Shown: positions 34,448 through 45,004 of the stretch, piece by piece | How positions within the stretch are numbered: the stretch's first letter is position 1 | Layout of the letters: each line of letters opens with the position of its first letter | DNA from: Segatella copri | Lineage (GTDB): Bacteria; Bacteroidota; Bacteroidia; Bacteroidales; Bacteroidaceae | Length of the DNA: 64,000 bases | Reading direction: 5' to 3' | Assembly (NCBI RefSeq): GCF_015074785.1 | Contig: NZ_CP042464.1 | Span: 1,550,001-1,614,000 of the forward strand | Notes under the pieces: model-generated | What the model was told of the DNA's origin: nothing | Databases searched by the model: none | What the model saw: the letters and a program-made list of their open reading frames with translations, nothing else | Made by a program: the position numbers and the translations under genes

Positions 34448-36010
34448 TTATTCTATCACCCAATCCTCTATACTTCGCTGGTTTTCCGAGAAGTTAATAC
34501 CCACTTTCACAACCTTTCGCTCATCATCGGCAAAAGCCTTGGCATAGTTCTTATCGCTGATTTGCGCCATGGCGATGTCGGCAGACTTCTTATATTTCAA
34601 CTCAAAGATAAAGATACTCTTATCCGTCTTGAGAACAAGGTCTATTCTTCCATCCGAAGTGGTATGCTCCACCTTTACATCTTCGCCAAGCATGGTGAAG
34701 ATGGTGAATATCACGGCTTGATAGTGACGCTCATTATTGTTGATAATCGTATATGGGAACTTATCATAGAATGCCTTCAAATGAGGCATAAAAGCTTCCA
34801 TGTCATCATTGATGAGCACATTCTTGGAATAAGCATACACGATGGCATCATATCTGTTCATGTCTTGCGCAGTATAATACCTGACGAGACTTTTCGAGAA
34901 GCCTTGTCTTACTTCTTGATTTGGGAAACAGAGATGATACAATTTTCCCCTTCGCTCATATCCTTTAATGGTAAGATAACCACTCTGGAAAAGAACAGGA
35001 ATCGGGTCTGTAAGTTTTTCAGTAGGGGTATCAAAACGATCGTCATTAACCCACAGATCATCCAGATTGAGCATATCCAAATTCTTCTGCTGCAACAACT
35101 CCACCAGGAACGTAGGCGTACCAGATGTAAACCAATAGCTATTAAACTCCTTATCATCCAAAGCATTGATAATGCTGTAAGGATTGAAGATATCCTCGCT
35201 ATTGATACTGAAGTGGTAGCCATCATAATGCTGCTTGAGTTGCTGCAAGGTCTCCTCATAAGTGAGTCCATTATGCTCAGCCATCTCCTCGATTCCCTCA
35301 CGGAAATACTGAGTCAATTCACTCTTGGTAATACCACAACAGCTACTGTATTCATCCTTCAACGTGAGAATCTTGAGATTGTTCAACTCGCTAAAGATGC
35401 TGAGCTGGCTAAACTTGGAGATGCCTGTGATGAATACAAAGCGGATGTTTCCCTCTTGCTGCTTCAAGGGGCTGAAGAAATCTCGCATGATATTGCGGAT
35501 GGTCTTCTGCAAGTCTTCGTCACTGACAGAATCATGCATTGGAGCATCATATTCGTCGATGAGAACAACAACTTGTTTACCTGTTTGAGCAGCTGCTGCA
35601 AGCAAGATGTTCTTAAGACGACCTCCAAAAGACTTCTCATCTATTGGATTAACTTTTAAACCATATTTTTTCTCTTCCACTTCTAGTATTCCGTTTAGAA
35701 TTGAATATGTATTCTCCAAACTATAATATTTACCACAGCTCAGATCCAGGTGGATGACAGGATATGCCGTCCATTCCTTCTCCATCTGTTCGATGGCAAG
35801 GCCCTTAAACAGTTCTTTCTTACCCTCGAAATAAGCCTGGAGGGTAGATACAAACAAGGATTTTCCGAATCGACGTGGGCGACTCAGAAAATGAAATTTG
35901 GCATAATGAGCCAACTGATAGACGATAGCCGTCTTGTCAGCATAGAAGTAATTCCCCTTCACGATTTCGGAGAACGTTTGTATTCCCAAAGGATATCTCT
36001 TTGAAGCCAT
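34448..36010 (-). CDS. AAA-ATPase-like / PD-(D/E)XK nuclease fusion protein
   Basis: The 520-residue protein starts RYPLGIQTFSEIVKGNYFYADKT with Walker A RPRRFGKSLF, Walker B VVLIDEYDAP, and a C-terminal nuclease motif (GRIDLVLKTDKSIFIFELKY: Asp and E-L-K). It belongs to the same multi-copy family as 14909-16684 but is only distantly similar. It is bracketed by two direct copies of a 77-bp palindrome, which suggests that the gene and repeats arrived or were duplicated together, or that the palindromes insulate it. Function not established. Confidence 0.87.
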   Translation of the reverse strand: MASKRYPLGIQTFSEIVKGNYFYADKTAIVYQLAHYAKFHFLSRPRRFGKSLFVSTLQAYFEGKKELFKGLAIEQMEKEWTAYPVIHLDLSCGKYYSLENTYSILNGILEVEEKKYGLKVNPIDEKSFGGRLKNILLAAAAQTGKQVVVLIDEYDAPMHDSVSDEDLQKTIRNIMRDFFSPLKQQEGNIRFVFITGISKFSQLSIFSELNNLKILTLKDEYSSCCGITKSELTQYFREGIEEMAEHNGLTYEETLQQLKQHYDGYHFSINSEDIFNPYSIINALDDKEFNSYWFTSGTPTFLVELLQQKNLDMLNLDDLWVNDDRFDTPTEKLTDPIPVLFQSGYLTIKGYERRGKLYHLCFPNQEVRQGFSKSLVRYYTAQDMNRYDAIVYAYSKNVLINDDMEAFMPHLKAFYDKFPYTIINNNERHYQAVIFTIFTMLGEDVKVEHTTSDGRIDLVLKTDKSIFIFELKYKKSADIAMAQISDKNYAKAFADDERKVVKVGINFSENQRSIEDWVIE

Positions 36011-36350: not shown

Positions 36351-38582
36351 TCAATACCCTGGGTTTTGAGTCAAATTTGGATTCATATCTATTCCATTTT
36401 GAGGAATAGGTAAAAGCAACTGATATTTTTCTAATCCGAGTTCTTTCATCGCCAAACCATTTCTTTTCAAGAAAGCAAAATAGTCTTGCAATTTAAGAGA
36501 CTTCCTCAGTTGTTTAATTCCTTCAACAGAAACACTTGTTCCGGAAATACCATTCACATTATCTACTTCTGAAATATATTTTGAAGACTTTGCATTGTTA
36601 CCCAAGTGAATTTCGCATTCAGCATATAAAAGCTTGACATCCGTAGTAGTCATAATAGGTACTACCTCTTCAGGACTTCCGTCTACATTTACCCTAGAGG
36701 CTCTTGACTCATTGCCAACCTTCAAAGCCAATATCAAATCTTTGCTTTCAGATGTATATTTTGTTGGAACTTTTTCCATAGAGTATATATTTTTGTCAAC
36801 AACTTGTTGGAGAAGATTACTAGCTGCAGCCCATTTTTGCTGATACATATATACTTTCGCCAAAAGAATACGAGCCACATCCTTCGATACAAACAAAGCA
36901 TCATTGGCGTTGGTTGCAAAAGCTACACATTTCTTTTCATCCAAATTTCTTATTGCTTCTACCAGTTCTTCTTCCAGCATTTGTAAAATACTAGATTCGG
37001 ATGTTCTTGGAACATAAGAATCTGCATAACCTTCAAAACCTGCATTAGGCATCACAACTACACCACCCCACCAAATCAACATTTGATAGTAGCACAAATC
37101 TCGATAAACATTCAGATAAGGAGAATATACTGCCCTATACATGGCATCTGCTCTATACAACCTTGCAATCATATTCAGCGCTTGGTATGAATCATTCCAA
37201 CACTTACGGATATTCGGTTCACTGCTACTAATAGGAGCAACAAAACGAAAATCATTTATTATCTTTGTATAACGATAATTCATCCCCGCCTCAAGGTTTA
37301 CAGCTTCAGACAAACTACTCATAAAATCAGAAACCAAACTGATACCAACACTTCCGAGGCGAGGTACTATGATTTCTGCATTAGGATTAGCTTGCTGAGT
37401 TAAGTTCAAGCAAGCTACTTCATTACCCATACCATCATATAAAGGAATTGAAACAGCTTGTTCCTTTCTAAAAGAGGCAGCCTTTACAACCACCTTTAAG
37501 ATATTATTATTCAATTCTTTAGAATAGTTGATACAAGGTTCACTTCCACTTCCGGTCTCATAAATTTTCATTCCCAAAACAGAAGTCGAATTATCGTATA
37601 TATCATCACCAGGAATACTTGGTCGCTCTAAGTAAACAGGTACAGTTGTATTTACCTTTACCTCATAGCTTCCACCTTCCATAGGTACATTGATATTATT
37701 TGTTTCCAAACTGACAGGATGATTTTCAGGCGCAATTTCATTTCCTGCAGTTCCATCTCCATCCCAATCGAAAAAATAGATAAGATTCTTAACGGCAACC
37801 TCTTTACCCATCTCTTGATAGCGTTTCTTGATATTCTCTGCTATTTGAGGCAATTTGCTTTCCAAAGAGAACATATCTTTACGAATTTGTAGTTTGGTAG
37901 TTTCTGAGAAATTACCATCCTCAGCAAACTCTTCTGAAAGTTGAGATAAATATTCAGTAATTTGTGCTTCAGAACGATTGTACAGAATTAAAGATGACAC
38001 GGCAATAAGAGCTGCTGCTTCATCAGTACCAGAAGTAATCGAGAAATGATTAACATCAGTCTTGGCATACTTTTCGAGACCAAAAGTCTTGAGAACTTCT
38101 TCTTGTGCCTGATTGTTTGCTTCCTTAAATGACTTACCATCCTTAGCTACCAAATCCATAACTCTCTGATACTTAAGATGTGAAAGAATATTCAAATTCA
38201 CATCAGCTGCATTTTGAAGATTAGCAACAGCATTTAAAGCCAAGGTTCCTTTAGAAAGTTCGCCAGTTACTTCATTAAAATAATATCCAGAAGCAGACAG
38301 TTTTACATAGGGAGACTTTAACAATTTAGATCCAAAAGTAAAAGTACCCTCATTATCTGTAATCGTAGAAGTAAAAGATTCACCTGTTTCATCTAGGTCA
38401 GCATCTAAAGGCTGCATTTGAATGGCTGTACCTCTAACAAAAGGACCTTTTTCTACTTTACCAGCTACATTAAAATTAGTAGGAGTGTAACCATCCAGGT
38501 CGTCATTACTAGAACAAGACTGTAGCATTGCCATCATTCCTATGGTAACAACCACAACGGCTTTCTTTAAAATTACTTTCAT
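36351..38582 (-). CDS. Chimeric lipoprotein with SusD/RagB-like C-terminal half
   Basis: The 743-residue protein has a lipoprotein signal (MMAMLQSCSSND, Cys at residue 23). An N-terminal region of about 110 residues looks like a carboxypeptidase-regulatory or Ig-like fold (GKVEKGPFVRGTAIQMQPLD). A helical region (residues about 110-280) and a BACON-like segment (LETNNINVPMEGGSYEVKVN) follow. The last 330 residues resemble SusD: TPR-like helices (SYQALNMIARLYRADAMYRA, then DVARILLAKVYMYQQKWAAA) and the classic ending PIPQNGIDMNPNLTQNPGY. SusD proteins bind glycans at the cell surface with a SusC porin, but no susC is adjacent. Both the architecture and the missing partner are unusual. Confidence 0.75.
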   Translation of the reverse strand: MKVILKKAVVVVTIGMMAMLQSCSSNDDLDGYTPTNFNVAGKVEKGPFVRGTAIQMQPLDADLDETGESFTSTITDNEGTFTFGSKLLKSPYVKLSASGYYFNEVTGELSKGTLALNAVANLQNAADVNLNILSHLKYQRVMDLVAKDGKSFKEANNQAQEEVLKTFGLEKYAKTDVNHFSITSGTDEAAALIAVSSLILYNRSEAQITEYLSQLSEEFAEDGNFSETTKLQIRKDMFSLESKLPQIAENIKKRYQEMGKEVAVKNLIYFFDWDGDGTAGNEIAPENHPVSLETNNINVPMEGGSYEVKVNTTVPVYLERPSIPGDDIYDNSTSVLGMKIYETGSGSEPCINYSKELNNNILKVVVKAASFRKEQAVSIPLYDGMGNEVACLNLTQQANPNAEIIVPRLGSVGISLVSDFMSSLSEAVNLEAGMNYRYTKIINDFRFVAPISSSEPNIRKCWNDSYQALNMIARLYRADAMYRAVYSPYLNVYRDLCYYQMLIWWGGVVVMPNAGFEGYADSYVPRTSESSILQMLEEELVEAIRNLDEKKCVAFATNANDALFVSKDVARILLAKVYMYQQKWAAASNLLQQVVDKNIYSMEKVPTKYTSESKDLILALKVGNESRASRVNVDGSPEEVVPIMTTTDVKLLYAECEIHLGNNAKSSKYISEVDNVNGISGTSVSVEGIKQLRKSLKLQDYFAFLKRNGLAMKELGLEKYQLLLPIPQNGIDMNPNLTQNPGY

Positions 38583-40075: not shown

Positions 40076-40386
40076 TTTGTGCCTGTATTTCTAGACATAA
40101 ATCCTCAAAAAAGGCTTTTTTGCAAGCAACTTACCTGAATTTTATGATACTTCTATTGAATTTATGATACTTCTATGATACTTCTTTGTAAAATAAACAG
40201 AAAAGTCTCATTTTTATAAACCATTACATATCAATCATATACATCGGTTTTAGCCACAAATAATGAGACTTTGATACTTTTTTCGAGAAAAAACTTTTAT
40301 GTGCACGAAAGAAAAGGAAAGAAGAAAGCAGTAATTATAAAAGAAAAAAGCAGCAATGGCTACTACTCCATTGCTGCTTATTTTAT

Positions 40387-42579
40387 TTACTGAACAATCT
40401 TGAAGCGGATACGCAAAGAATGCGCATGCTCATCCCAATTGGTACCAAGCAATACGAACTTGCCAATCTGGGCTGTAGAACGGACATGCTTGCCGATACA
40501 TGGACAAACATCATAATCACCGATACGAACCAGACGCAAGGTCTCGCTCGCATCATCCGGCAGACGGTCTAACTTGACGTTAGCCGGAATATGGTCACGA
40601 TCCACAAACTCGTAAGTAACAGGCATATCAAGCTCTATCAGACGATTCATCTCCGTCTCAATCTCCTTCTCCTCCTGACGTGTAGGCTTGTGATCGACTA
40701 CGAAGGTCATCTTACTCTTCTTGCGCTCAATATGTGCATTGCGGCTGCGCTCACAGCCAAACAGGCGAACCATCAACTGATTGAGCAGATGCTCAGCCGT
40801 ATGAGCAGGAGGGAACTCCTCCTTATGATGCTCATTCAATATGATATCACTTTCCTCCATCTTGACATTGAATTTATAGATTCTTACTCCGTTAGCATCC
40901 ATTGATATCGGGAACACGCCATCCTTCTTCAACTCAACCTTCTTCTTACCACCCGAGAACAGTTCTGTTACCAGCACCTCCTCTTCAGCAATATGGAAGA
41001 AATCGAAAGCATGACCAGGGATGCAAACCTGCAACTGGCGCGCCTCCTGAGCAAAGTTAAGCACGATGAGCATGGCTTCATCATCCTTCTTGCGAAGGAA
41101 GGCGAAATTGGTACGGGGATCGAAATTCTCAGAACCCGGATTCACATACATCAAATCGAAGGTCTCACCCTCGCGGATGGCTTTCTCTTCATTGGCGAAG
41201 CGAAGAAGCTGGCGATAAGTGGCTGCCAGATACTTCTGCTCCTGACTCAATGCCGAGTCAGATGAATCCTGATAGGCATGCGCCAGAGTTTCCAGACTCC
41301 AATAGTCGAATATCGTGGTACGGCCATCCGTGCCGCTGAATCCTTCCTTATCCATTCCCTTCTCGCCGAATTCCTGACCGCTGTAAAGCATGAAAGGATT
41401 CTTCTGGAAGAAGAGACTCATGGCTGCAGCAGGAATCGCCTTCATAGCTGAGCCACAGAAGAAATCGCTGGCGATGCGCTGCTCATCATGATTCTCAAGG
41501 AAATAGAGCATGTGATCGCGGATATCATCCACTACCTGCCACTCGTGAGTGATACTGGCTGCCGGACGCTCACCACGAACCACGCCACGCAGGCAATCAT
41601 ACATTCCTACTTTGTCATAAAGATAATCGAAACCAGCCTTTACAAAGTTGCGGTACTGGTTAGGATCGTAAACCTCACCGATAACGACGATATGAGGATA
41701 CTTCGCCTTCAATATTCCTGTAGCGTATGCCCAGAAGGCCGTTGGCACCATTTCTGCCATATCACAGCGGAAGCCATCTACACCCTTGCTTGCCCAGAAG
41801 AGGAGGATACCTGTCATCTTACCCCATGTGTTTGGCACTGGTTCATAATGATAGCTTCTGCCTCCTGCATCACAGTAATCTACACCGTAATTGAGTTTCA
41901 CGGTCTCATACCAGTCGTTACAGCCAGGATGGTTATCAAACCGATCGTTTCCTGTAGCTTTGGCTGGACTCTCGGTATAGGGTTCATAAATCTTGGCATC
42001 TTTCGCAGAAAAAGCCTTGAACTCTGGTTTGGAACGACGGATTTCATTCAAATCCAAATCGCCCCATGCATAATAGAAATTATTCCTAGTAGAGAAGTGC
42101 ATGTTCGGATCATCATCTTCTCCCAAATCCCGTACACCTGTTGGTTTGCAAATGGAATGATACTCTCGGGCTACATGGTTCGGAACGAAATCCATGATTA
42201 CTTTCATACCAGCCTTGTGAGTACGCTCTATCAGCTGCTCCCACTCTTTCATTCTCATACTGACATTCACAGCCAAGTCTGGATCGATATCATAGTAGTC
42301 GGTAATAGCATATGGCGAACCTGCTTTTCCCTTCACTACCTCTGCATGCTGAGTAGGAATTCCATAAGAAGAGTAGTTTGTCTGAGTGGCATGACGAATC
42401 ACACCCGTATACCAAATATGTGTAAATCCCATATCGTGGATGCTAGCCAAAACTTTATCAGAGAAATTATTCAGCTTTCCACAACCATTCTCTTCGATGG
42501 TACCATTTTCCTTACAGGTTGTATTCTGATTTCCGAAGAGTCGTGGGAGAACCTGGTATATAATAACTTTTTCCTTCAC
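40387..42579 (-). CDS. GH13 alpha-amylase-family enzyme fused to an AlaX-type tRNA-editing domain
   Basis: The continuous 730-codon frame joins two unrelated enzymes. Residues 1 to about 573 are a GH13 hydrolase without signal peptide: region I DFVPNH, nucleophile GVDGFRCDMAE, acid VVIGEVYDP, FLENHDEQR, and a C-terminal beta domain ending VRIYKFNVK. Residues 574-730 (from an internal ATG at 40860) form an alanyl-tRNA-editing domain with zinc motifs HTAEH and CIGKH and the family sequence DASETLRLVRIGDYDVC. AlaX domains deacylate mischarged tRNA and are normally free-standing or part of AlaRS. No stop or frameshift separates the halves. The editing domain may also be made alone from the internal ATG. 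Confidence 0.85.
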   Translation of the reverse strand: MKEKVIIYQVLPRLFGNQNTTCKENGTIEENGCGKLNNFSDKVLASIHDMGFTHIWYTGVIRHATQTNYSSYGIPTQHAEVVKGKAGSPYAITDYYDIDPDLAVNVSMRMKEWEQLIERTHKAGMKVIMDFVPNHVAREYHSICKPTGVRDLGEDDDPNMHFSTRNNFYYAWGDLDLNEIRRSKPEFKAFSAKDAKIYEPYTESPAKATGNDRFDNHPGCNDWYETVKLNYGVDYCDAGGRSYHYEPVPNTWGKMTGILLFWASKGVDGFRCDMAEMVPTAFWAYATGILKAKYPHIVVIGEVYDPNQYRNFVKAGFDYLYDKVGMYDCLRGVVRGERPAASITHEWQVVDDIRDHMLYFLENHDEQRIASDFFCGSAMKAIPAAAMSLFFQKNPFMLYSGQEFGEKGMDKEGFSGTDGRTTIFDYWSLETLAHAYQDSSDSALSQEQKYLAATYRQLLRFANEEKAIREGETFDLMYVNPGSENFDPRTNFAFLRKKDDEAMLIVLNFAQEARQLQVCIPGHAFDFFHIAEEEVLVTELFSGGKKKVELKKDGVFPISMDANGVRIYKFNVKMEESDIILNEHHKEEFPPAHTAEHLLNQLMVRLFGCERSRNAHIERKKSKMTFVVDHKPTRQEEKEIETEMNRLIELDMPVTYEFVDRDHIPANVKLDRLPDDASETLRLVRIGDYDVCPCIGKHVRSTAQIGKFVLLGTNWDEHAHSLRIRFKIVQ

Positions 42580-42591
42580 TTAGCGGCTTTA

Positions 42592-42651
42592 CTAAAAAAA
42601 TGAAACGTTTTACCTTTCCAACAACGCCTTTGCTGAAAAGATAAAACGTTG
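42592..42651 (-). terminator. Terminator after fabD
   Basis: On the minus strand AACGTTTTAT (42650-42641) pairs with GTAAAACGTT (42613-42604), with inner CTTTTC/GGAAAG pairing, followed by a seven-T run near 42600-42592. It closes fabD just before the start of the GH13 gene. Confidence 0.75.
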
Positions 42652-42668: not shown

Positions 42669-43556
42669 TTAAGCAATACCATGAGCGGCAACATTCTTGT
42701 CGATGCGGCCAATCATACCCTGCAATGCCTTGCCAGGGCCACACTCTGTGAAGTCATCAGCACCATCAGCAATCATAGCCTGTACAGATGAAGTCCAACG
42801 TACAGAGCTTGTAAGCTGTGCGATGAGGTTCTGCTGAATCTCAGCTGGATCAGTATGAGGCTTACCATCTACATTCTGGTAAACCGGGCACTTAGGAGCT
42901 GAGAATGTAGTCTTCTCGATGGCAGCCTGAAGTTCATCCTTAGCTGGCTGCATCAATGGAGAGTGGAAAGCACCACCAACCTTCAAAGGCAATGCACGCT
43001 TAGCACCAGCAGCCTTCAGCTTCTCGCAAGCAGCATTGATAGCATCTACGTTACCTGAGATAACGAGCTGACCAGGGCAGTTGTAGTTAGCAGCAACTAC
43101 CACGTTGCCTTCTGTGCTCACCTCAGCGCAGACTTCCTCAACCTTCTCATCTGGCAAACCGATGATGGCAGCCATGGTACCAGGGTTAGCCTCGCAAGCC
43201 TTCTGCATAGCATTGGCACGGGCAGCAACAAGTTTCAAACCATCCTCGAAAGCCATAGCACCGGCAGCAACCAATGCAGAGAACTCACCGAGAGAGTGAC
43301 CAGCAACCATAGCTGGCTTGAACTCCTCACCCAGGCAAAGAGCAGAGATAACAGAATGGAGGAATACAGCAGGCTGGGTAACCTTGGTTTCCTTCAACTG
43401 ATCGTCGGTACCGGCGAACATGATATCAGTAATCTTGAAGCCGAGAATCTCGTCGGCCTTATCAAAAAGTTCTTTTGCCAATGCGTTGTTATCGTAGAGA
43501 TCCTTACCCATACCTACGAACTGAGAACCCTGTCCAGGGAAAACAAATGCTTTCAT
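42669..43556 (-). CDS. fabD: Malonyl-CoA:ACP transacylase
   Basis: The 295-residue protein has the acyltransferase nucleophile in MVAGHSLGEFSAL, the Gln in FPGQGSQFVGMG and the catalytic His in GGAFHSPLM. It loads malonyl groups on acyl carrier protein for fatty acid synthesis. A -7-like box (TACCTTTG, 43632-43625 minus strand) lies about 70 nt upstream; -33 is unclear. Confidence 0.96.
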   Translation of the reverse strand: MKAFVFPGQGSQFVGMGKDLYDNNALAKELFDKADEILGFKITDIMFAGTDDQLKETKVTQPAVFLHSVISALCLGEEFKPAMVAGHSLGEFSALVAAGAMAFEDGLKLVAARANAMQKACEANPGTMAAIIGLPDEKVEEVCAEVSTEGNVVVAANYNCPGQLVISGNVDAINAACEKLKAAGAKRALPLKVGGAFHSPLMQPAKDELQAAIEKTTFSAPKCPVYQNVDGKPHTDPAEIQQNLIAQLTSSVRWTSSVQAMIADGADDFTECGPGKALQGMIGRIDKNVAAHGIA

Positions 43557-43836: not shown

Positions 43837-44367
43837 TTATTCAGCTGCTGGAGCCTCTTCCTCAGCTGCAGCCTCAGCAGGTGCCTCAACTGGAGCCTCC
43901 TCAGCAGCAGGAGCTGCAACAGGAGCGTTCTCAGCAACAACGTTAACTGGAACCTTAACCTCAACCTCCTTGTGGTAGTGTACAGTAGCCTCGTACTCAC
44001 CAACCTTCTTAGCATCCTTCATAGTGATGATCTTGCGATCAACCTCGATGCCCTTCTTAGCGAGTTCCTCAGCAACAGTTGCAGCGTTAACTGAGCCATA
44101 GAGCTGACCAGTAGCGCTCACCTTAGCAGCGATAGTAAGAACAATGCCCTCGAGAGCCTCGCCCTTCTTAACAGCCTCAGCCTTGATAGCCTCAAGCTTG
44201 TGAGCCTGCTGCTTCAAATCCTCAGCCAACTGCTTCTTAGCAGATGGAGATGCGATAACAGCCTTACCTGTAGGGATAAGGAAGTTACGACCATAACCAC
44301 TCTTTACATTTACGATATCGTTCTTATATCCAAGACCGATAATATCTTGCTTCAAAATAATTTCCAT
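43837..44367 (-). CDS. rplI: 50S ribosomal protein L9
   Basis: The first 148 residues are canonical L9 (MEIILKQDIIGLGYKNDIVN, then GYGRNFLIPTGKAVIAS and KVSATGQLYGSVNA). A further 28-residue tail made of Ala, Glu, Pro and Val repeats (AAEEAPVEAPAEAAAEEEAP) is not part of the standard protein. It follows rpsR by 20 bp. Confidence 0.97.
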   Translation of the reverse strand: MEIILKQDIIGLGYKNDIVNVKSGYGRNFLIPTGKAVIASPSAKKQLAEDLKQQAHKLEAIKAEAVKKGEALEGIVLTIAAKVSATGQLYGSVNAATVAEELAKKGIEVDRKIITMKDAKKVGEYEATVHYHKEVEVKVPVNVVAENAPVAAPAAEEAPVEAPAEAAAEEEAPAAE

Positions 44368-44387
44368 TCTTCTTTATCCTCCTTAAA

Positions 44388-44657
44388 TTACTTCATCAAA
44401 TCGGTTACGTAAGGAAGCAAAGCGATCTGGCGAGCACGCTTTACAGCCTGTGCTACACGGCGCTGATACTTCAAAGATGTACCTGTGATACGACGTGGAA
44501 GGATTTTACCCTGCTCGTTCAAGAACTTCTTCAAGAACTCTGGATCCTTGTAGTCGATGTACTTAATACCGCTCTTCTTGAAACGGCAATACTTCTTCTT
44601 CTTTGTGTCGATAGAAGGAGCAGTCAAATAACGGATTTCTGATTTCTGATCTGCCAT
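44388..44657 (-). CDS. rpsR: 30S ribosomal protein S18
   Basis: Eighty-nine residues with the S18 core [19 protein letters not shown], then [20 protein letters not shown] and [13 protein letters not shown]. It binds S6 on the platform of the small subunit. rpsF ends 2 bp upstream, so translation is probably coupled. Confidence 0.98.
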
Positions 44658-44659
44658 GA

Positions 44660-45004
44660 TTAAGCCTCCTCTTTTTTACCAAGCTTTGCACGACGCTTCT
44701 CTGCGTAAGCGGCAGCATACTTGTCAAGTTTAACAGTCATGTAACGAATTACTTTCTCGTCGCGGCGATAAGCTGTTTCGAGCTTAGCGATAACAGTTGG
44801 CTCAGCCTTGAACTCAACCAAGCTGTAGAAGCCTGATGTCTTCTTCTCGATGTTGTAAGCCAACTTCTTCAAACCCCAAGCCTCTTTGTTCAGAATCTCA
44901 GCACCATTATCGGTGAGTACCTTCTCGAACTTAGCGACCGTTTCCTTCATCTGTTCATCAGACAAAACGGGAGTCAAAATGAAAACGGTTTCGTATTGAT
45001 TCAT
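44660..45004 (-). CDS. rpsF: 30S ribosomal protein S6
   Basis: The 114-residue protein begins [20 protein letters not shown] and has [20 protein letters not shown] and [19 protein letters not shown], all S6 marks. It is first in the S6-S18-L9 operon. Confidence 0.97.

Follow-up and report, generated by a model that had tools for sequence, protein, structure and literature searches.

A single gene of Segatella copri joins a GH13 amylase to an AlaX-type tRNA-editing domain in one reading frame (40387..42579, minus strand, in the 64,000-nucleotide stretch analysed here, hereafter the window). We consider it probable that this gene gives two products, an 84-kDa fusion and a free 18-kDa AlaX made from a conserved inner start. 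The reading rests on comparison of sequences among relatives, in which every fused frame kept a start codon at the join, with an initiation-like context before it, and in which the fused state appears to have been gained and lost more than once.

The fused frame, its two domains and its surroundings

The gene formed a single open frame of 730 codons (42579-40387, minus strand) with a GTG start, a TAA stop and no inner stop, and predicted masses were 83.9 kDa for the whole protein and 18.4 kDa for the AlaX part. Pfam placed both domains in this one frame, PF00128 at residues 9-412 and PF07973 at residues 681-715. The first-pass annotation had described GH13 catalytic motifs followed by a complete AlaX domain, and both held up: the motifs were present, both Pfam matches were found, and D130, N134, H135, R271, D273, E302, H364, D365, H593, H597, C694, and H698 were invariant in all 44 fused frames compared. 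The join read YKFNVK then MEESD, with the ATG at 40860-40858, as that annotation gave it. The nearest genome compared had this frame too, 98% identical and free of stops.

The amylase part covered residues 1-573 (40861..42579, minus strand). Its PF00128 (Alpha-amylase) score of 83.2 bits was above the gathering score (cut-off 22). The GH13 motifs, all on the minus strand, were DFVPNH at residues 130-135 (42175..42192; D130, N134, and H135 invariant in 44/44), GFRCDMAE with the predicted nucleophile D273 (41752..41775), GEVYDP with the predicted acid/base E302 (41662..41679), and ENHDEQR with H364 and D365 (41476..41496), the named residues of the last three likewise invariant in the fused frames. 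The roles of D273 and E302 are predicted by analogy with other GH13 enzymes. The catalytic Asp-Glu-Asp and His residues (D273, E302, D365, H135, and H364) were present in 44/44 fused rows. A Foldseek search with the AlphaFold model placed solved amylases on top, with E values down to 1.9e-24. The amylase part has catalytic residues and fold in common with GH13 alpha-amylases and maltogenic amylases (PDB 4gkl, 1jf6), but was only 16–19% identical to them in fold alignments. It is a predicted starch- or glycogen-cutting enzyme. By eye, no signal peptide was noticed in it.

The AlaX part covered residues 574-730 (157 aa; 40387..40860, minus strand) and scored 37.1 bits with PF07973 (tRNA_SAD; cut-off 24). 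Its residues 19-156 aligned with residues 8-151 of Pyrococcus horikoshii AlaX-S (PDB 1v4p; E 3.9e-7), and the zinc motifs HTAEH (H593, H597; 40789..40803, minus strand) and CIGKH (C694, H698; 40486..40500, minus strand) paired with H9/H13/C116/H120 of that structure. The zinc ligands of the P. horikoshii protein are named in PMC3680381. Both HxxxH and CxxxH were invariant in 44/44 fused rows. The part is minimal in size, 157 residues from Met574 with PF07973 as the sole domain found there. Against the AlaX-M profile (NCBIfam NF040865) it reached 66.4 bits, over profile positions 97-221 of 234 only, and because 66 bits is far under the curated cut-off of 300 we file it as a putative AlaX-S type. 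It has its 157 aa, the HxxxH/CxxxH ligands and PF07973 alone in common with AlaX-S (type I) trans-editing proteins, such as those of P. horikoshii (PDB 1v4p, 1v7o/1wnu); unlike them, it is the 3' part of an amylase gene, and its editing is predicted. AlaX has been described as a second checkpoint for Ser-tRNA(Ala) (PMC3158927). Full-length AlaRS was found in 5/5 genomes tested, and editing by AlaX would back it up. In one unfused AlaX (L018, genome G011), HxxxH reads HTTEY, without its second His, and the protein appears truncated, a possible case of AlaX decay in one lineage.

The AlphaFold model of the whole fusion, built with 39 aligned rows, had a mean pLDDT of 79.7. In the model, the final amylase strand spans residues 565-571, pLDDT falls below 50 at residues 575-580, and the first AlaX helix begins at residue 591. 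The join is a low-confidence hinge in this predicted model, and we make no claim on the relative placing of the two domains.

A fabD-like acyl transferase (42669..43556) lies upstream on the same strand, and fabD held this place in 69/69 named loci in which more than 600 bases of sequence precede an amylase. Between fabD and the fusion gene (42604..42650, minus strand), a consensus scan detected a terminator-like hairpin, and it detected another directly 3' of the AlaX stop (40348..40379, minus strand; 12 pairs and a T tail), which is also terminator-like on the plus strand. Just upstream of fabD and the fusion gene, 43837-45004 (minus strand) holds ribosomal protein L9 (Pfam) and two S18-/S6-like frames (by eye); these S6/S18/L9 surroundings are a translation neighbourhood. 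Elsewhere in the window, 34448-36010 (minus strand) encodes a protein with an AAA-ATPase-like domain (PF09820) and a PD-(D/E)XK nuclease (PF08011), and 36351-38582 (minus strand) a 743-aa protein whose SusD_RagB match is restricted to its last 24 residues. A 371-codon open frame antisense to the amylase (41488-42603, plus strand) is probably a codon-usage by-product.

Spread and history of the fusion

The named loci comprised the best 80 of 424 relatives; of these, 24 were fused, 47 had a separate same-strand amylase upstream and nine had no amylase upstream; one of these nine (L126) has hardly any upstream sequence to read. All 47 separate amylases were within 50 nt of AlaX except in L111. 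In this set the loci nearest to the window gene were from Segatella copri strains. Fused named species include S. copri, S. maculosa, S. buccae, Hallella multisaccharivorax, Prevotella dentasini, P. veroralis, P. vespertina, and Leyella stercorea, and the unfused include S. albensis, P. disiens, and Xylanibacter rarus. The check proposed in the first-pass annotation, whether both domains share one frame in several species, was thus answered in the affirmative, and its opposite, that close relatives would always have two separate genes, is contradicted by the fused frame in many of them.

AlaX was detected in 237/299 genomes of the genus. The fusion was present in at least 30 of the 150 rows listed, a lower bound as rows with shorter frames were not all read; the 30 were checked on DNA or reported without stops. 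G129, with a frame given as 664 aa, was considered as a 31st fused row and rejected, as on DNA its AlaX is a separate 161-aa frame. G038, with a frame given as 911 aa, was likewise rejected as a second AlaX fusion with another partner, its AlaX being a separate 163-aa frame. Such a spread, and the probable age of the fusion, do not support the picture of a lone accident.

Both Pfam domains were found in 117 of the 120 best long homologues, and K573-M574 was kept in 119/119 of those readable at the join. This search admits only proteins of 0.55–1.75 times the query length and cannot return a free AlaX, so it was not used for prevalence. For the comparison of fused and unfused genes, 178 loci with AlaX were reduced to 135 by removing identical AlaX stretches, giving 44 fused rows, 78 unfused rows with an amylase upstream and 13 without. 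As 20 loci had been chosen for looking fused, this set is enriched for fused rows, and prevalence was taken from the named loci and the genus rows instead.

The first-pass annotation had taken loss of a stop codon between two adjacent genes as the simplest origin of the fusion. The unfused relatives agree with this: they have the two genes side by side, in 72/78 no more than 50 nt from the position that aligns with Met574, with gaps of about −13 to +44 nt, and unfused neighbours occur in all three relative frames. Clear AlaX matches also occurred in five genomes from other families (G038, G047, G054, G059, and G060); in none of them was the listed match beside an amylase match, so the amylase–AlaX pairing looks special to the genus-level group. 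In one of these genomes (G038; L198, 571-3306, minus strand), AlaX is followed after 27 bases by a 738-aa alpha-galactosidase-like frame (by eye), and here again AlaX stands beside a likely glycoside hydrolase. Among the papers searched, none treated AlaX, amylase and fusion together, and the matches listed for Prevotella copri, alpha-amylase, glycogen and alanyl-tRNA editing held nothing on this gene.

The history of the fusion was read from a tree of the 135 amylases, rooted on eight sequences of other families, which was built by a quick method and is weak at several of its inner branches. A single clade of 70 rows (SH-aLRT 100) held 42 of the 44 fused rows, and fused lineages stood at the base of this clade. 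Equal-cost parsimony on the fused state gave five gains and seven losses. In one of these losses (L195), and in the rows L187 and L016 of a second, AlaX is simply not adjacent to the amylase. Doubling the cost of gains gave three gains and 10 losses, and doubling the cost of losses gave 15 gains and one loss, so the count of fusions varies with the costs chosen. Under a two-state likelihood model, P(fused) was 0.99 at the base of the 70-row clade, in a sample enriched for fused rows. The rooted tree favours one old fusion at the base of this clade, followed by splits and a few further fusions.

Most fused rows have a Lys codon directly after the amylase end, and in the shared join the amylase C-terminus KF(N/S)x is followed by this Lys and the AlaX Met. 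In the window gene this codon is Lys573 (AAG; 40861..40863, minus strand), and in the unfused L170 the same place holds the stop (TAA). The shared join fits one old stop loss. Different joins were observed in L133, L153, and some others (L066, L113, and L152). Other splits took different forms. In S. albensis (L064), the amylase ends in another frame and overlaps AlaX, and the AlaX ATG is kept. In L176 (genome G170), an in-frame TAG lies two codons past position 573, where its fused closest relative L154 (G156) has AAG. The L176 AlaX frame is intact and has no ATG start, GTG or TTG being its only possible starts. L176 thus offers a naturally occurring test of initiation at GTG (or TTG).

The start codon at the join and its sequence context

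The internal ATG (Met574; 40858..40860, minus strand) is the predicted start of a free AlaX of 157 aa and 18.4 kDa. A start codon stood at the join in 44/44 fused frames, ATG in 42 and GTG in two (L149, L154). In the 42, the in-frame ATG lies 5–10 codons before the invariant Asn582; L149 and L154 have their GTG there. Met574 itself was kept in 34/44 rows, and in eight of the 10 rows that lost it an ATG occurred within three codons, for which the chance expectation was 17% per row (p 2e-5, with rows not fully independent). The best nine-column window had an ATG in 41/44 rows. Among 66 windows that were about as variable or more, some of which overlap the join, those away from the join had an ATG in at most 18/44 rows.

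The linker after Met574 is among the most variable stretches of the protein, with an entropy of 2.6–3.1 bits at residues 575-578, compared with 1.37 bits at Met574 and a protein mean of 1.01 bits. Within all-fused subtrees, Met574 changed three times, residues 575-578 six to nine times each, and the average column of the whole protein 3.0 times. Met574 is therefore exceptional only against its linker, not against the protein mean. In 11 hand-chosen pairs, Met574 was the same in eight, and each of residues 575-580 was the same in one to six. The start codon at the domain border is thus kept beyond its surroundings, as in a gene within a gene. A relic Met would be expected to drift like the linker, so a start codon in 44/44 rows counts against a relic. 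As far as sequence can show, start codons at the join appear to turn over under selection.

Bacteroidetes ribosomes rely on upstream A residues and weak structure rather than on Shine-Dalgarno pairing (PMC3155529, PMC6847099). Prevotella start sites lack Shine-Dalgarno sequences and have weaker upstream structure than inner Met codons (PMC3155529), and initiation in Flavobacterium johnsoniae is stronger when A stands at −3, at −6, and in the region of about −14 to −11 (PMC6847099). The 30 bases before the internal start of the window gene, which are the 3' end of the amylase coding part (40861..40890, minus strand), are AT-rich and little structured, with A at −3, −13, and −14 and G at −6.

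Context statistics were computed on 34 of the 44 fused rows, with near-copies left out. The MFE of the upstream 30 bases averaged −0.98 at the join, compared with −4.53 at the 719 remaining in-frame Met codons of these rows, and it was weaker at the join than the row's own median in 34/34 rows. Upstream GC was 0.31 at the join and 0.52 at the other Met codons. A was more frequent at the join than at the other Met codons at −3 (79% vs 24%), −6 (65% vs 18%), −13 (79% vs 11%), and −14 (76% vs 43%), and showed no enrichment at −12 and −11 in these 34 rows. Compared with other Met codons, the join carries an initiation-like context in its A residues, low GC and weak structure.

How much of this context goes beyond the encoded protein was judged from synonymous codons. 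Lys569 was encoded by AAA in 23/33 rows (11.3 expected, p 5e-5; rows share ancestry, which makes this and the other p values too small); among 21 conserved Lys columns, no other had so strong an AAA excess. The second-strongest was at Lys4, beside the amylase's own start. For Lys573 there was no clear synonymous bias (AAG in 19/22, 15.4 expected, p 0.06). The upstream codons as a whole were more AT-rich than synonymous shuffles (GC mean z −1.08, p 2e-7). The MFE of the leader did not differ significantly from the shuffles (mean z 0.06, p 0.71), and the weak structure of the leader therefore follows from the amino acids. Much of the initiation-like context stems from the amino acids, and codon choice adds to it.

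The amylase end was more AT-rich where AlaX is adjacent (mean z −1.56, 72 rows) than where no AlaX is close by (−0.57 in 13 rows and −0.84 in six), though some AT-richness was seen there too. At 73 unfused AlaX starts, the mean MFE was −1.39 and GC 0.33, similar to the fused join, but A at −3 occurred in only 30/73, and part of the A at −3 in the fused rows may be just the inherited Lys573. The first-pass annotation had listed internal initiation at 40860 as one of three options; it is supported by the start codon, by the sequence around it and, in part, by synonymous codon usage.

Products of the gene and alternative readings

Before fusion, the tandem genes very likely had the AlaX start in or beside the amylase end. 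Since Bacteroidetes ribosomes do not rely on Shine-Dalgarno pairing, the leader of AlaX can lie inside the 3' coding end of the upstream gene and would function whether or not that gene still has its stop. Were the stop codon lost, the amylase would gain a C-terminal AlaX while free AlaX would still be made, which would explain both why the fused state flips and why the start codon stays. Ribosomes starting at the amylase would run on into the 84-kDa fusion, and other ribosomes would start at the conserved ATG and give the free 18-kDa AlaX. We infer that ribosomes do start there, that most editing of mischarged tRNA(Ala) falls to the free form, and that the internal start is the reason the stop codon could be lost and regained. 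The long form would be an expected by-product, with a role of its own possible.

The fused frame as a sequencing or assembly error can be set aside, as many independent isolates and assemblies carry the same frame, most of the listed homologues hold both Pfam domains (in a search that admits only long proteins), and no point was found in favour of an error. Quite unlikely, in our judgement, is a gene whose sole product is the 84-kDa bifunctional protein, with the internal Met a relic and AlaX working only while tethered to the amylase. The open frame is probably old (P 0.99 for a fused ancestor of the 70-row clade), which means that the joined protein has long been tolerated, and both active sites are invariant in 44/44 rows; against this, every fused row has a start codon at the join, moved by up to three codons where Met574 was lost, and splits leave AlaX intact. 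We consider it very unlikely that the AlaX part no longer edits mischarged tRNA(Ala) and instead serves the amylase as an RNA-binding or structural appendix. A precedent exists in the malaria tryptophanyl-tRNA synthetase fusion, which carries an AlaX-like appendix without zinc ligands (PMC3680381), and the full-length AlaRS in 5/5 genomes tested means that editing may be redundant. In the malaria case, however, an AlaX-like domain that has lost its ligands is joined through a 72-residue linker to a partner that is itself a tRNA enzyme, whereas the Segatella fusion keeps all four ligands in 44/44 rows, has an amylase as partner and a short linker.

A neutral toggle, in which the amylase and the free AlaX matter, the long form is functionless and the stop comes and goes without effect, is a tentative reading to which we would give somewhat less than an even chance. 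It shares the internal start with the two-product reading and denies the long form a role, so that confidence in the two overlaps. The five gains and seven losses under equal-cost parsimony speak for it, as do the unfused neighbours in all three frames with their short gaps and overlaps in 72/78. Against it stands the S. copri–S. maculosa clade, where 14/15 rows are fused despite divergence of up to 1.3 substitutions per fourfold site between pairs within fused clades. This persistence may reflect selection on the fused frame, selection on the A at −3, or a small target for splitting. Unlikely as a whole, in our view, is the joint proposal that the stop between the tandem genes is dispensable without Shine-Dalgarno use, with repeated fusing and splitting while both products persist, and that the bifunctional enzyme of glucan breakdown and tRNA proofreading is also kept for a role of its own.

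The two-product reading has parallels in Cas11b inside cas8b (PMC11899642) and RpnS inside rpn (PMC10327210), where one frame gives a full-length and a C-terminal product from an internal start and these products either cooperate or counteract one another. The amylase–AlaX gene differs in that its domains belong to unrelated pathways, it consists of tandem genes with a lost stop that can split again, and its short product is predicted. The unfused relatives resemble translationally coupled tandem genes, which overlap or lie a few bases apart (PMC10666635, PMC12548453). The fused state has no termination at the join, so coupling by termination-reinitiation would be unavailable to it.

Across dozens of related species, one gene pair is found fused, overlapping and separate. 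This natural series lets one ask what purpose a stop codon serves between tandem genes in Bacteroidetes. Under the two-product reading, a common gut bacterium would make a second protein so far hidden within this gene, a caution against taking a fused frame as proof of a fused function. Should the long form prove useful, carbohydrate metabolism and translation fidelity would be physically linked in an unexpected way.
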